From assembly GCA_000514715.1 (NCBI GenBank), contig AZWL01000007.1:186001-250000 (forward strand): a stretch of 64,000 nt of DNA. The letters run 5' to 3'. Positions 21,495 through 27,528 of the stretch are shown here, piece after piece. The position numbers and the translations under genes are program-made. Below the pieces are notes generated by a model. That model was given only the letters and a program-made list of their open reading frames with translations, made no database searches and had not been told where the DNA came from. Source of the stretch: Streptomyces sp. CNH099. Lineage in GTDB: Bacteria; Actinomycetota; Actinomycetes; Streptomycetales; Streptomycetaceae. How positions within the stretch are numbered: the first letter of the stretch is position 1; each line of letters begins with the position of its first letter.

Positions 21495-22853
21495 TCAGCG
21501 GTGCCGGCCGCCCGGCGGCGGCTCGTGCTTGGCCAGGTCCACGATGGGCACCGGGGCGTCCACCGACAGCGCCTGCGCCAGCGGGTCGGGGGCGCGGAGC
21601 GCCGCGTCGGGGGCCGGTTCGCCGCGGCCGCCGAAGAGGGCCGCGCGCAGCTCCATGCGGGTGCGGCGGGCCGTGGCGCGGGCGGCGGCGACGGCGTCCC
21701 GCGCGGTGCGCCAGGCGTCGCGGACGGCGCGGCCCGCGGGGCGGGCGGTGGCGTTCCAGATCCAGCGGGTGCAGCGCCCGGCGGCGGTCCAGGCGGGGGC
21801 GAGGACGTGCCGCCAGAGGAGGGCGAGCGGCGCGAAGAGCGCGGAGAGCATCCGGCTCACGACGGTCACGAGCCCGCGGACCAGCCAGGCGACGCCCAGC
21901 GCGAGCGGCTTCAGGACGTACGCGTAGATCAGGGACGCCGGCGCCGCGACCAGCCACCGCCAGCCCCACGCCGCTCCCGCGCCCAGGGCCCGCAGCAGCC
22001 GCAGCGCACCCCGGCCGGCCGGCGCCAGCACGTGCCCGTACGCCCACGCCCCCGGCGCGGCGACGCCCCACCGCCACAGCCACGCCGCCCCCGCCGCCGT
22101 GCCGCGCGCCGCGGCGGCGACGCCGCGGCCGGCCCGGCGCAGCGTCCACACCGCGCCGTGCCCGACGGGCGTCAGCACCCGGCGGTACGTCCACGTCAGC
22201 GGCGCCACGACGCACGTGTACGCCAGCCACCTGCCGCCCGCGCCGGTGGCCCGCGCACCCGCGGCGGCGAGCCGCACCGCGGTGCGGCAGAGCCGGGTCA
22301 CGGCGGTGCCGGCGGGGCGCAGGACGTAGCGGTGGGCGGCGGCCGCGGGGGCGGCGACCAGCACGCGCAGCGCCCGGCGCAGGCCGTGGCCGAAGGGGGT
22401 CAGGACGTGCGCGTACAGCCAGGAGGCCGGGGCCGCGACCAGCCACCGCCACCCCCACACCACGGGCGCGACGACGACCCACCGCAGCAGCCACGCCAGC
22501 GCCGTGCCCGCGGCCCGCAGCAGCCGCACCGCGCCCCGGCCCGCGGGCGCCAGCACCTGCCGGTACAGCCGTCGCGCGGGGTCGGCCAGCAGCCGCTCCC
22601 CCAGCCACGCCAGCACCCCGCCGAGCCCCTTCGCGGCGGCGACGAGCAGGTCCCACAGGGCCCGCACCGGCACCACGAGGACGAGCACCGCCCACCGGAC
22701 CGGCGCCGCGAGACAGCCGCCGCCGTACCCGTCCGCCGCCGGGCCCCCGTGGTCCGTGAACCGGCCGCCGCCGTCCCGCCCCGCGCGCCGCTCCGCATCC
22801 CGCTCCCCGTCCCGCTCCGGACTCCGTTCCCACTCCTGGGCCACGGTCCTCAT
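21495..22853 (-). CDS. Membrane repeat protein with seven YxxVLxP units
   Basis: The 452-aa protein is not one I can assign to a known family. After a 45-residue charged N-terminus and a hydrophobic region (50-90), it contains repeats beginning YRQVLAP (residue 97), YAHVLTP (147), RYVLRP (175), YRRVLTP (223), YGHVLAP (272), YAYVLKP (310) and WRHVLAP (347). Each is followed by a Gly turn, an Arg/Leu-rich amphipathic segment and, in several units, a WRWLVAAP hydrophobic patch. The spacing varies from about 30 to 50 residues. The end (380-452) is charged and soluble-looking. It looks like a multi-helix membrane or membrane-associated protein. ATG at 22853 is used; a GTG three codons in (22844) is possible. 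Confidence 0.75.
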   Translation of the reverse strand: MRTVAQEWERSPERDGERDAERRAGRDGGGRFTDHGGPAADGYGGGCLAAPVRWAVLVLVVPVRALWDLLVAAAKGLGGVLAWLGERLLADPARRLYRQVLAPAGRGAVRLLRAAGTALAWLLRWVVVAPVVWGWRWLVAAPASWLYAHVLTPFGHGLRRALRVLVAAPAAAAHRYVLRPAGTAVTRLCRTAVRLAAAGARATGAGGRWLAYTCVVAPLTWTYRRVLTPVGHGAVWTLRRAGRGVAAAARGTAAGAAWLWRWGVAAPGAWAYGHVLAPAGRGALRLLRALGAGAAWGWRWLVAAPASLIYAYVLKPLALGVAWLVRGLVTVVSRMLSALFAPLALLWRHVLAPAWTAAGRCTRWIWNATARPAGRAVRDAWRTARDAVAAARATARRTRMELRAALFGGRGEPAPDAALRAPDPLAQALSVDAPVPIVDLAKHEPPPGGRHR

Positions 22854-22916: not shown

Positions 22917-23471
22917 CTACGCCTGCCCCGCCCCCGTGGGGACCCAGTACCGCAACTTCAGGCCCCGCCGGTCCTCGAAGACGCCGCCGTTGGCCTCGAT
23001 GACCTTCCGCGACCCCGCGTTGTCGTGGTCGCAGGTCACCAGTACCTCCGCCAGCCCCAGGTTCCGGGCCACGGGCAGCGCGCCGCGCAGCATGGCGGTG
23101 GCGTGGCCGCACCGCCGGGCGGTCGGCCGCACGTCGTAACCGATATGCCCGCCCTGCTCGCGGAGCCAACCCGTGAGCGAGTGCCGGATGGCGATCCGGC
23201 CCAGATAGGTGTCCCCGTCCACGTACCAGAGCGTGGTGCAGTGCACCCGGCCCGGGCGGATCATCGGGATCGTCTCGTCGGCCTCGGCGCGCAGCCCCGC
23301 GACGTACGACGCGAAGACCGCGGGGTCGTGCCAGCGCCGGCGCCAGCGCCGGAGGTCCTGGCCGATGGACGTGTCGTCGCCGACCGCGCCCCTTCCCTCG
23401 GCCTCGAACTCCTTCATGGCGTCGGCGAAGGAGGCGCGAAATCGAACGTGGGGGGTGGTCAGTTGCGGCAT
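22917..23471 (-). CDS. GNAT-family N-acetyltransferase
   Basis: The 184-aa protein has the GNAT core: a Trp-rich acceptor side, IGYDVRPTARRCGHATAML (acetyl-CoA binding motif with the R/Q-x-x-G-x-A/G pattern) and the later VTCDHDNAGSRKVIEANGG motif typical of amino-acid- or protein-directed GNATs. ATG at 23471 (MPQLTTP) was preferred over one at 23507. Substrate unknown. It is divergent from the secreted-protein gene at 23647. Confidence 0.88.
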   Translation of the reverse strand: MPQLTTPHVRFRASFADAMKEFEAEGRGAVGDDTSIGQDLRRWRRRWHDPAVFASYVAGLRAEADETIPMIRPGRVHCTTLWYVDGDTYLGRIAIRHSLTGWLREQGGHIGYDVRPTARRCGHATAMLRGALPVARNLGLAEVLVTCDHDNAGSRKVIEANGGVFEDRRGLKLRYWVPTGAGQA

Positions 23472-23646: not shown

Positions 23647-24108
23647 ATGGGCCAGCACGCCTCCCGATACCCGACCCGTACGCACCGCGCCCTGCTGCGC
23701 GCCGGCCTCATCGCGGCGGCGGCCGGCTCCGCGCTCGCGGCCGGCGGAGCCGCCGGGGCGGCCGCGGCACCCGCGGACGACACCCCGGTCGGCGCGCTCG
23801 ACCGGCTCGGCGAGCTGAACGTCGGCAAGGCCAACAAGATCGAGACCGACCAGATCGCGGCCGCCCTGGGCGGCGTCGCCCAGGGCCTGGACACGACCAG
23901 GCAGACGGCCCTCGGCCCGCTGACCGACATCCCGCTCAACCCGCTGGCCAAGACCGGCTCGGACCCGCTGGACAACGCGGTCAGCACGGCCCCCGGCGAG
24001 AACGGCACGCCGCTGAGCACGGCCGCGATCACCGGCCCGCTGGCCGAGGGCGCGTCGCTGTCGGGGCTGCCGGCGGTCGGCCCGTACGTGGGCCGCCTCG
24101 TCAGCTGA
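23647..24108 (+). CDS. Small secreted Ala/Gly/Leu-rich protein
   Basis: The 153-aa protein has a Sec signal peptide: basic start (RYPTRTHRALLR), a hydrophobic Ala-rich core and a likely cut after AGAAAA near residue 40. The mature part is about 110 residues, Cys-free, with repeated small-residue/Leu turns (GALDRLGELNVGKANK, PLTDIPLNPLAK). No family is recognised. ATG at 23647 has GGTGG 6 bases upstream; GTG at 23641 is an alternative. It neighbours two further small secreted genes, one a rodlin, so a surface role is plausible but inferred. Confidence 0.78.
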   Translation: MGQHASRYPTRTHRALLRAGLIAAAAGSALAAGGAAGAAAAPADDTPVGALDRLGELNVGKANKIETDQIAAALGGVAQGLDTTRQTALGPLTDIPLNPLAKTGSDPLDNAVSTAPGENGTPLSTAAITGPLAEGASLSGLPAVGPYVGRLVS

Positions 24109-24132
24109 GCGCAGCCCTCCCGGCAGCACCGG

Positions 24133-24169
24133 GAAGACGGCCCGCGGATGCGCTCCGCGGGCCGTCTTC
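24133..24169 (+). terminator. Terminator after the secreted-protein gene
   Basis: A perfect 16-bp stem (24133-24148 with 24154-24169) closes a 5-base loop 25 bases after the stop codon. Confidence 0.8.
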
Positions 24170-24218
24170 GTACGCCCTGGGCCGGGACCCGGGTACGGGT
24201 CCCGCGTACGCGCAAGGG

Positions 24219-24257
24219 CCCGGCCCGGGGCGAGCATGCGACTCGCCCCGGGCCGGG
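24219..24257 (-). terminator. Terminator after the rodlin gene
   Basis: A perfect 16-bp stem (24219-24234 with 24242-24257) encloses a 7-base loop about 30 bases beyond the rodlin stop on the minus strand. Confidence 0.8.
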
Positions 24258-24285
24258 TACCGGGATTCCCCGTGTGGTACGGGAC

Positions 24286-24705
24286 TCAGCCGGCGTTGTT
24301 GCCCGCGCCGTTGCCCGAGAGGATCGGGAAGTCCTCCAGCAGGTGGGACAGCGGGGCGTCGCCCTGGTCCGCGCTGGAGTTCTTGGCGCAGGTCTGGTTC
24401 TGGTTCTGGGCCAGGACCTCGTCCACGCCGACGTTGACCAGGTTGACGATCGGAACGAGCTGCTTCGCGTTCTTCGCGACCTGCGGCAGCGCGATGCAGG
24501 GCTCGTTGAGCGAGCCGTTGACCAGGCTCATGTTCGGGCTCATGTAGCCGCCGGTCTTGGTGTTGCCGTAGGCGATCTCCGAGCCGTTGCCGTTGGCGTA
24601 CGGGCCGTCGCCACTGTCGTCGGCGGCCAGCGCCTGCGGGGCGGCCAGCGCCGAGGCGCCCACCAGGGTGGCGGCAACGGCCGCGGTCTTCAGGTACTTC
24701 CTCAT
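24286..24705 (-). CDS. rdl: Rodlin (surface rodlet protein)
   Basis: The 139-aa protein has a Sec signal peptide (MRKYLKTAAVAATLVGASA, cut after APQALA) and the rodlin pattern: ANGNGSE-AYGN, MSPNMSLVNGSLNEPC, LVPIVN-NVGVDE, a second Cys in QTC, and LSHLLEDFPILSGNGAG at the end. Rodlins order chaplin filaments into rodlets on aerial hyphae and spores. In the genomes I remember, rodlins come as a pair beside chaplin genes; here a single one lies without a chaplin gene in view. ATG at 24705 was chosen because the signal peptide starts there. Expression is probably tied to aerial growth. Confidence 0.9.
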   Translation of the reverse strand: MRKYLKTAAVAATLVGASALAAPQALAADDSGDGPYANGNGSEIAYGNTKTGGYMSPNMSLVNGSLNEPCIALPQVAKNAKQLVPIVNLVNVGVDEVLAQNQNQTCAKNSSADQGDAPLSHLLEDFPILSGNGAGNNAG

Positions 24706-24755
24706 GTTTCTCTTTTCCTTTTCCACCTGAGGGAACAACGATGCGGGCACGCTGT

Positions 24756-24784
24756 ACAACTCCGCACCCCTTGAGTGAGTTATC
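24756..24784 (-). promoter_or_regulatory. Possible BldN-type promoter of the rodlin gene
   Basis: On the minus strand GATAAC (24779-24784) is followed by 17 bases and AGTTGT (24756-24761), resembling the sigma-BldN promoter consensus as I recall it (CGTAAC, CGTTGA). It would place the start about 45 bases before the rodlin ATG. The match is partial, four of six bases in each element. Confidence 0.3.
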
Positions 24785-24835
24785 CGGAATCGCCCGTTCG
24801 GACGATCGGATTGTGTCCGGAGCGAAACCGACCGC

Positions 24836-25147
24836 TCAGGAGCCGCCGCGCGGCTCCGCGCCGGCGGGCGCCAGGATCTGCGGTGGCAGGGCGCCCTGGA
24901 TGACCTGGTGTGCCGTTGCGTCGACCGGCCGGGTCAGCTTGCGGACCACCGGCCCGTTGACCGGCAGGCTGTGCTGCACCAGTTCGGTCGCGGGCTGGTT
25001 GACCAGACCCTCCACGGCCTGTGCGGCCGCGGCGTCCAGACTCAGGTCCGGGCTGGTGAGTCCGGGATCGATGGCGCCCGCCGGGCCGGCAGTGCCCAGT
25101 GCCAGGGCGGCACCGCACACGACCACGGCAGACTTGACGTACTTCAC
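24836..25147 (-). CDS. Small secreted protein upstream of the rodlin gene
   Basis: The 103-aa protein has a clear signal peptide (MKYVKSAVVVCGAALALG, cut after AGPAGA near residue 25) and a mature part of about 78 residues without cysteine: LDAAAAQAVEGLVNQPAT, then VNGPVVRKLTRP and a Pro/Ala/Gly-rich end. The KYVKSA/KYLKTA style of its N-terminus resembles that of the adjacent rodlin. No family is recognised. It lies 130 bp upstream of the rodlin on the same strand. Confidence 0.75.
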   Translation of the reverse strand: MKYVKSAVVVCGAALALGTAGPAGAIDPGLTSPDLSLDAAAAQAVEGLVNQPATELVQHSLPVNGPVVRKLTRPVDATAHQVIQGALPPQILAPAGAEPRGGS

Positions 25148-25470
25148 TTGGCATCCTTTCCGCCACGGAGCCTTCGGAGCGTTTCCTTGCCGTCAGAGCG
25201 ACGGCCGTTCTCCCGAAGCCCCACCTTCGTTATTCGAAACGAGGGCAGCGCGGTGACGACACGGCACGCGGAATAATCGCGTACAAGTCCCCCGTACGGA
25301 GCAATGGTGCGATTGTCGGCGGAATAGAGAAAGGCGTCCCGGGAATGCCATGAAATGCCGTCGGGCGGCGGGCACGGCAAAGCCCCGGACCGGTGTACCG
25401 GCCCGGGGCTGCGTTGACTTCTCGTCCACCCGTGCGGGTGGTCACGGCCGGTCCGCGGACCGGCCGGGCG
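25148..25470. other. Intergenic region between secreted gene and radical SAM gene
   Basis: The 323-bp gap holds the upstream region of the 103-aa secreted-protein gene and, at 25381-25410, the hairpin that ends the TIGR03960 gene. It is locally more A+T-rich (about 25200-25380) than its surroundings. No further gene is supported. Confidence 0.5.
25381..25410 (-). terminator. Terminator after TIGR03960 radical SAM gene
   Basis: A 13-bp stem with one mismatch (AGCCCCGGACCGG against CCGGCCCGGGGCT) and a 4-base loop. Read on the minus strand the stem is followed by TTTG, giving a short T tract. Confidence 0.75.
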
Positions 25471-27438
<1,968 letters not shown>

Positions 27439-27528
27439 CGGGAAGGCTGTCCTCGGCGGTCCTGTGATACGTACGCGGGTGACCATCCAGCGTAGCGCGC
27501 GCCCCGCCCGGGGCCCTCTTCGCGCTGC

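Follow-up and report, generated by a model that had tools for sequence, protein, structure and literature searches.

What two unnamed small secreted proteins are doing on either side of a single rodlin gene is the question raised by a locus in Streptomyces sp. CNH099, where a window of 64,000 nucleotides (the whole stretch of DNA analysed here) places the three genes between neighbours shared with other genomes (Table 1). The preliminary description had recognised three short genes for signal-peptide proteins, and all three open reading frames were found where it placed them, with the signal peptides assigned by eye. It had also called the two unnamed products, here P1 and P3, Cys-free; this is true of P1, which has no Cys, but in P3 it applies to the mature part only, as a single Cys (residue 11) lies inside the signal peptide. 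We take the product of the gene beyond P3 to be a radical-SAM protein carrying the TIGR03960 label. A long protein of repeated hydrophobic stretches is also encoded near the trio (21495-22853, minus strand); it aligns with G047 and S. aculeolatus in pieces only (46-50% identity) and with G144 at 67% identity, in comparisons where the GNAT neighbour and a neighbour that is presumably DUF2344-like are more than 92% identical.

Table 1. Features of the rodlin locus, in window coordinates
Feature	Position	Strand	Description
GNAT acetyltransferase	22917-23471	-	PF13302 and PF00583; one flank of the trio
P1	23647-24108	+	153 aa; secreted (signal peptide by eye); convergent with rodlin
16-nt perfect inverted repeat	24133-24169		3' of P1; terminator-like, without a T run
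16-nt perfect inverted repeat	24219-24257		3' of rodlin, amid convergent P1 and rodlin
Rodlin	24286-24705	-	139 aa; match to NCBIfam rodlin_AB (NF041022)
Rodlin motif, weak match	24754-24786	-	About -80; expected place
P3	24836-25147	-	103 aa; GTG start; secreted (by eye); directly 5' of rodlin
P3/chaplin motif, one half	25212-25240	-	Upstream of P3; -35-like GTTTC at -93; -10 half GCTT, not CGTT
Radical-SAM gene	25471-27486	-	Recognised by eye; other flank of the trio

The middle gene is a rodlin, as first proposed. Its NCBIfam match reaches 154.6 bits (cut-off 75) over model positions 1-134, and it keeps the residues that are invariant in a 12-row rodlin alignment of which the window protein is one row, including two Cys (C70 and C106); no relative was found in the PDB. 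The genome-wide search returned this gene as the sole rodlin of the 8.14-Mb genome, the second match having an E-value of 0.4, together with five PF03777 (chaplin) matches on contigs C2 and C57. Because the chaplins lie on these other contigs and the rodlin has about 210 kb and 105 kb of its own contig (C46) on its two sides, no chaplin lies near it. Within the window, a home-made chaplin model found none at E-values up to 1, in agreement with the preliminary description, and plasmid searches gave no match.

That description pictured rodlins as divergently oriented pairs adjoining a chaplin gene, and set the lone rodlin without a nearby chaplin apart from this. Across the genus genomes searched, rodlin matches range from 0 to 5 per genome. 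Among 79 rodlin loci, drawn from the best 80 of the search and some of them ending at contig ends, a chaplin was present in 67, and the number of rodlins was one in 15 loci, two in 22, three in 40, and four and five in one locus each. The divergent pair is one existing arrangement but not the rule, and with 15 of the 79 loci holding a single rodlin, the lone gene is less of an oddity than implied there. We therefore rejected it as the main peculiarity of the locus: the lone rodlin is ordinary, and its unnamed partners are the point of interest. Rodlins are described as readily lost (PMC4255298), and losses are also described in PMC8397704. In the genus-wide search, the three rodlin matches listed for one genome (G033:C4:52519-54198) contain one in-frame TGA each. 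In three loci (L173:10505-10792, L194:3439-3723, and L191:10573-10857), a different small secreted protein of 94-95 aa is encoded immediately 3' of the last rodlin in convergent orientation, with similar ends (AAPVTGLLPSIA in L194 and L191, VAPVTNLLPAVQ in L173), and is possibly a further cluster-linked family.

Comparison with relatives showed that six genomes, all from the S. aculeolatus/phytophilus group, keep the order and orientation of the trio: the window genome, G047, G223, G144, S. aculeolatus DSM 41644 (L123), and S. phytophilus (L122, whose contig is evidently that of G050). The association thus exceeds chance. Reading frames of rodlin and P3 are intact in all six genomes and that of P1 in five; in the sixth, S. 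phytophilus, the radical-SAM side is kept and P1 runs off the contig end. The rodlins of the five other genomes are 79-89% identical to the window copy. Both flanks of the trio are present in four genomes (the window genome, G047, G223, and S. aculeolatus), while in G144 the GNAT side is kept and, unlike in four other group members, no radical-SAM gene lies within 4.1 kb beyond P3 (L236:1-4078). The radical-SAM gene was present in all ten other genomes searched, with no P1, rodlin, or P3 within 1.5 kb of it in any of them; the presence of the trio at this site is therefore particular to one group. In S. sulphureus, a GNAT gene stands beside the radical-SAM gene and the trio is absent there. 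On balance, we favour with moderate confidence the reading that the window holds a rodlet-layer locus that has been relocated and reduced in the S. aculeolatus/phytophilus group, in which one probably RdlB-like rodlin would be accompanied by two accessory secreted proteins.

P1 has a conserved core (PLAxTGxDPLDN) and scores 147 bits over its full length against a 17-row alignment in which it is one row; identity to single homologues is 41-78%. Neither Pfam nor NCBIfam has a model for the family (at most one of the 17 members was matched), and the window protein had no Pfam match and a best NCBIfam score of 15.2 bits (cut-off 274). Searches of the open-licence literature by SCO number returned nothing on P1. 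In G047, G050, G144, G223, and S. aculeolatus, an orthologue stands at the equivalent position. Seven P1 regions were also read, and in six of them (all but G037) the homologue lies between uridine-kinase-like and aldehyde-dehydrogenase ORFs, named by eye, and tblastn showed the P1 of JJ36 to lie with such kinase and dehydrogenase ORFs. At E-values up to 1e-20, the uridine-kinase-like gene had no match in the window genome, G047, or S. aculeolatus; it was matched in S. sulphureus and S. xiaopingdaonensis. The sole significant P1 of S. sulphureus lies at its rodlin cluster, with none beside the kinase. This cluster has the order rdl> chp> chp> P3> rdl> <P1, which is shared by G112, G127, and G177 (L147, L269, L276, and L277 across the four genomes). 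Its latter part, P3> rdl> <P1, is as in the window, whereas the rdl> chp> chp> part kept ahead of it is missing from the window; the trio would accordingly be read as the counterpart of the 3' half of a fuller chaplin-rodlin cluster. Among the 79 rodlin loci, some ending at contig ends, P1 is present in three (L122, L123, and L147) and away from rodlins in 76. Some lineages have a P1 gene at the rodlin cluster, while in many genomes the family is located elsewhere.

For P3, a 13-row profile matches 166 of 199 genus genomes at E-values up to 1e-3. The family has no Pfam or NCBIfam model (any one model matches two of 31 members at most, at E-values up to 0.01), and window P3 had no Pfam match and at most 16.8 bits in NCBIfam (cut-off 128). 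A P3 match is present in 48 of the 79 rodlin loci and none in the other 31; in 44 loci it is the gene immediately 5' of a co-oriented rodlin, at most 1.1 kb away, with a median gap of 185 bp. Among 20 regions fetched, four from outside the window group (L072, L087, L088, and L089) show a P3-like gene in this position. Likewise, in the rdl-chp-P3-rdl-rdl clusters of S. griseus NCTC13033 (L167) and G005 (L089), a rodlin follows the P3-type gene directly in the same orientation, as in the window; these clusters differ in holding chaplins and further rodlins, and the mature part of window P3 differs from theirs. Another P3-type candidate, SCO2699, was rejected, being chpG. A published S. venezuelae strain has lost chpDFG and rdlAB together with the intervening genes (PMC12096830), and a P3-type gene may be among those removed.

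The surroundings of P3 matches extend this picture to chaplins. Among the 43 best P3 matches listed for genomes of the G0xx series, 37 are in rodlin-bearing genomes, and 33 of those are on the rodlin contig, 23 within 5 kb of the rodlin and ten at 15.7-29.8 kb. A chaplin lies within 1.8 kb in all nine P3 regions inspected (five of the distant matches, two of the near ones, and two from rodlin-less genomes). We then considered matches from outside the G0xx series, chosen without regard to neighbours: in 20 consecutive mid-list matches scoring 64-85 bits, viewed with about 4 kb on either side, a chaplin lies within 2.3 kb in 19, and the twentieth (G144, a member of the window group) has its rodlin at 150 bp. 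In 20 matches hand-picked from near the bottom of the list (34-52 bits, G117 left out), a chaplin lies within 1.7 kb in 12, and eight have neither chaplin nor rodlin within about 4 kb. None of 17 control loci (168.6 kb) contained a chaplin or a rodlin. P3-type orthologues are therefore linked to chaplins and rodlins across the genus and not spread without such a link, apart from those eight lower-scoring matches. P3-type genes form a genus-wide, chaplin- and rodlin-linked family of which window P3 is probably a divergent member.

Co-occurrence at the level of whole genomes follows a similar trend. Rodlins were found in 145 of the 199 genus genomes; P3 at E-values up to 1e-10 is present in 126 of these 145 versus nine of the 54 rodlin-less genomes, P3 at E-values up to 1e-3 in 130 versus 36, and P1 in 141 versus 32, with Fisher p-values from 1e-20 to 4e-4 that are uncorrected for kinship among the 199 genomes. 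A spread of orthologues with no tie to rodlins or sporulation, which the preliminary description named as counting against its idea, is in part seen for P1, which has housekeeping-like surroundings in six of seven regions and occurs in 32 rodlin-less genomes, but in the window group, S. sulphureus, G112, G127, and G177 it is the convergent gene 3' of the P3-rodlin pair. The same P1 observations favour the alternative in which P1 and P3 are bystanders, that is, ordinary secreted proteins kept in place by gene order or shared regulation, with no role in rodlets; the 31 rodlin loci that lack a P3 match and the poor conservation of the mature sequences point the same way. Yet P3-type genes occur at several separate chaplin and rodlin loci, they have an upstream motif in common with chaplins (below), and the P3 of the window group stays with the rodlin despite the absence of chaplins. 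We regard the bystander explanation as unlikely, though a serious competitor.

Whether window P3 belongs to the P3 family deserves separate attention. P3-type proteins have two conserved mature motifs, P-x-x-SLNG and LLGGLPLG. The C-terminal LLGGLPLG is absent from the P3 proteins of the window group, and for this reason we call window P3 only a probable divergent member. As a whole, it scores 32.9 bits against a profile from which the window group was left out, a score equalled or exceeded by six of 3000 shuffles that kept the signal peptide. Four of five chaplin precursors also score 26.9-35.9 bits against the P3 profile, two of them above window P3, through the signal peptide; the fifth, a 45-residue piece, scores 0.2 bits. 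The mature part of window P3 scores 5.7 bits, which 38 of 2996 scored shuffles equalled or exceeded, an unconvincing match; an earlier profile gave it 7.2 bits, a score that at least 11 of 2000 shuffles exceeded. In hhalign, the full-length comparison with the family gave 96% over 80 columns and the mature part alone 0.33%. By position, directly 5' of a rodlin, window P3 is the equivalent of P3-type genes elsewhere. Position and signal peptide together make membership probable, with the mature part unclear. AlphaFold2 gave no fold for P3 (pLDDT 47.8) or for P1 (43.9, with only three sequences as input), an outcome that is neutral as evidence. P1 and P3 were also tried as one family and rejected (2.4 bits against the P3 mature model; 1.3-3.4% in profile comparison). 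Another small secreted protein is encoded near the kinase-locus P1 in three regions (L079:1722-2024, L078:15099-15629, and L083:15692-16009), in a neighbourhood that we take to be afsQ-like. The L079 and L078 copies have an LLGGLP-like C-terminus, and for the L079 copy the first P3 mature profile gives 19.3 bits, above window P3, and the profile without the window group 10.7 bits.

Upstream sequences were searched for motifs de novo by word-pair counts, with near-identical upstreams removed before counting. GTTTC-N16-CGTT was found upstream of 28 of 42 P3-type genes, 29 of 123 chaplins, and none of 162 rodlins, while GGAAC-N17-GTTG was found upstream of 47 of 162 rodlins and no chaplin (of 123) or P3-type gene (of 42); one shuffle of each upstream set gave no motif match. 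In the window, the rodlin match at -81 is weak, its score being reached by 9% of some 1000 control windows, each 250 nt long, and near-identical sequence occupies the same place in three relatives. The upstream region of window P1 matched neither motif. A guessed sigma-BldN-like pattern was rejected, with no match in the three window upstreams or in 182 rodlin upstreams. Sigma-BldN is described as driving chaplin and rodlin genes (PMC4125116, PMC10117723).

Chaplins resemble P3-type proteins in being small and secreted, with a similar signal peptide and the upstream motif described above; P3 and P1, however, have neither the PF03777 domain nor a mature Cys. P3 as a chaplin proper was rejected, having no domain match in Pfam or with the chaplin model. 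A P3-type derived from chaplins is a subtler alternative: a chaplin promoter and signal peptide would have been joined to a new, fast-changing mature part, serving as surface filler or being lost, with no specific partner. The common upstream motif is in keeping with such an origin, as is the hhalign comparison of P3-type with chaplin precursors (97.7% over 48 columns), which falls to 0.03% without the signal peptide. The family's own mature motifs, P-x-x-SLNG and LLGGLPLG, recur in many genomes and argue against it, and we consider this derivation improbable.

The rodlin itself can be compared with the two rodlins of S. coelicolor, which adjoin chpA and chpD (SCO2716-2719; PMC3293853). In that species, rodlets are reported to need both RdlA and RdlB, with amyloid formed by RdlB only, and residues 16, 27, and 36 to be crucial for amyloid formation, although altering them in RdlB did not fully abolish amyloid (PMC5314377). 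The same study describes an amyloid-competent three-residue RdlA variant which, in two gene copies, brought rodlets back to a rodlin-less strain, and its authors suggest that unidentified components participate in rodlets (PMC5314377). The window rodlin is of the same family as RdlA and RdlB, over the curated cut-off, and differs from them in being single-copy, with no chaplin close by and with P3 and P1 flanking it. Lined up by eye, it has Glu16, Tyr27, and Asn36. Because residues 27 and 36 are uncharged, as in RdlB, this lone protein appears to resemble RdlB more than RdlA, although in the window species Glu16 adds one charge of the RdlA kind; residue 16 is Thr in the rodlins of G050, G047, and S. 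aculeolatus.

In the P1 tree, from which three partial, four duplicate, and two long-branched rows had been dropped beforehand, the window group joins G112 and G127 (96/95) and S. sulphureus joins the kinase-locus P1 of JJ36 (95/85), so that at least two label changes are required. A single rodlin-linked P1 clade was unrejected (AU p 0.142 with five rows, 0.175 with eight, and 0.428 with JJ36 added). In rodlin trees, the window group joins neither the rodlins of G112 and G127 nor those of S. sulphureus, and it has a long branch (0.87). The rodlin trees are thus at odds with the P1 tree; P1, rodlin, and P3 may have had different histories, and the idea that S. sulphureus passed on all three genes as a block is unsupported, the rodlin tree separating the two groups. 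Decay is a further alternative, with the locus as what is left of a rodlet system in this group that no longer makes rodlets. Its one rodlin, weak upstream matches, long rodlin branch, missing P3 C-terminal motif, and the ready loss of rodlins (PMC4255298) might suggest this, but it is very improbable given the intact rodlin and P3 frames in six genomes, the intact P1 in five, and rodlins that remain 79-89% identical.

Returning to the reduced rodlet-layer locus, we propose how it might work. All three proteins would be secreted as aerial hyphae form, and the single rodlin may polymerise alone into the outer rodlet layer. P3, and perhaps less surely P1, could act as small sheath accessories that guide the placement or ordering of rodlin fibrils on the chaplin layer, a role corresponding to the job for which 'yet unidentified components' were invoked. 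The suggestion in the preliminary description that the two unnamed proteins are further surface-layer components is supported in part, at the level of genome context, clearly for the P3-type and partially for P1. A more far-reaching version is tentative, and we rate it as possible rather than probable: P3-type proteins might form a third sheath class, structural or ordering, beside chaplins and rodlins, and be the extracellular component that couples rodlin fibrils to the chaplin layer, and in the S. aculeolatus group a lone RdlB-like rodlin with P3 and P1 might replace the RdlA/RdlB pair.

In PMC5314377, the cooperation of RdlA with RdlB and the further contents of the rodlet layer are presented as open questions, and rodlins are described as mattering for spore transport by motile bacteria (PMC8397704). 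P1 and P3 are testable candidates for coat components because their relatives lie inside coat-gene clusters elsewhere. More generally, the unnamed genes for secreted proteins inside chaplin and rodlin clusters are candidates for the missing components of the coat that can be deleted in model strains, and a lineage with one rodlin offers a natural simplification of the two-rodlin problem.
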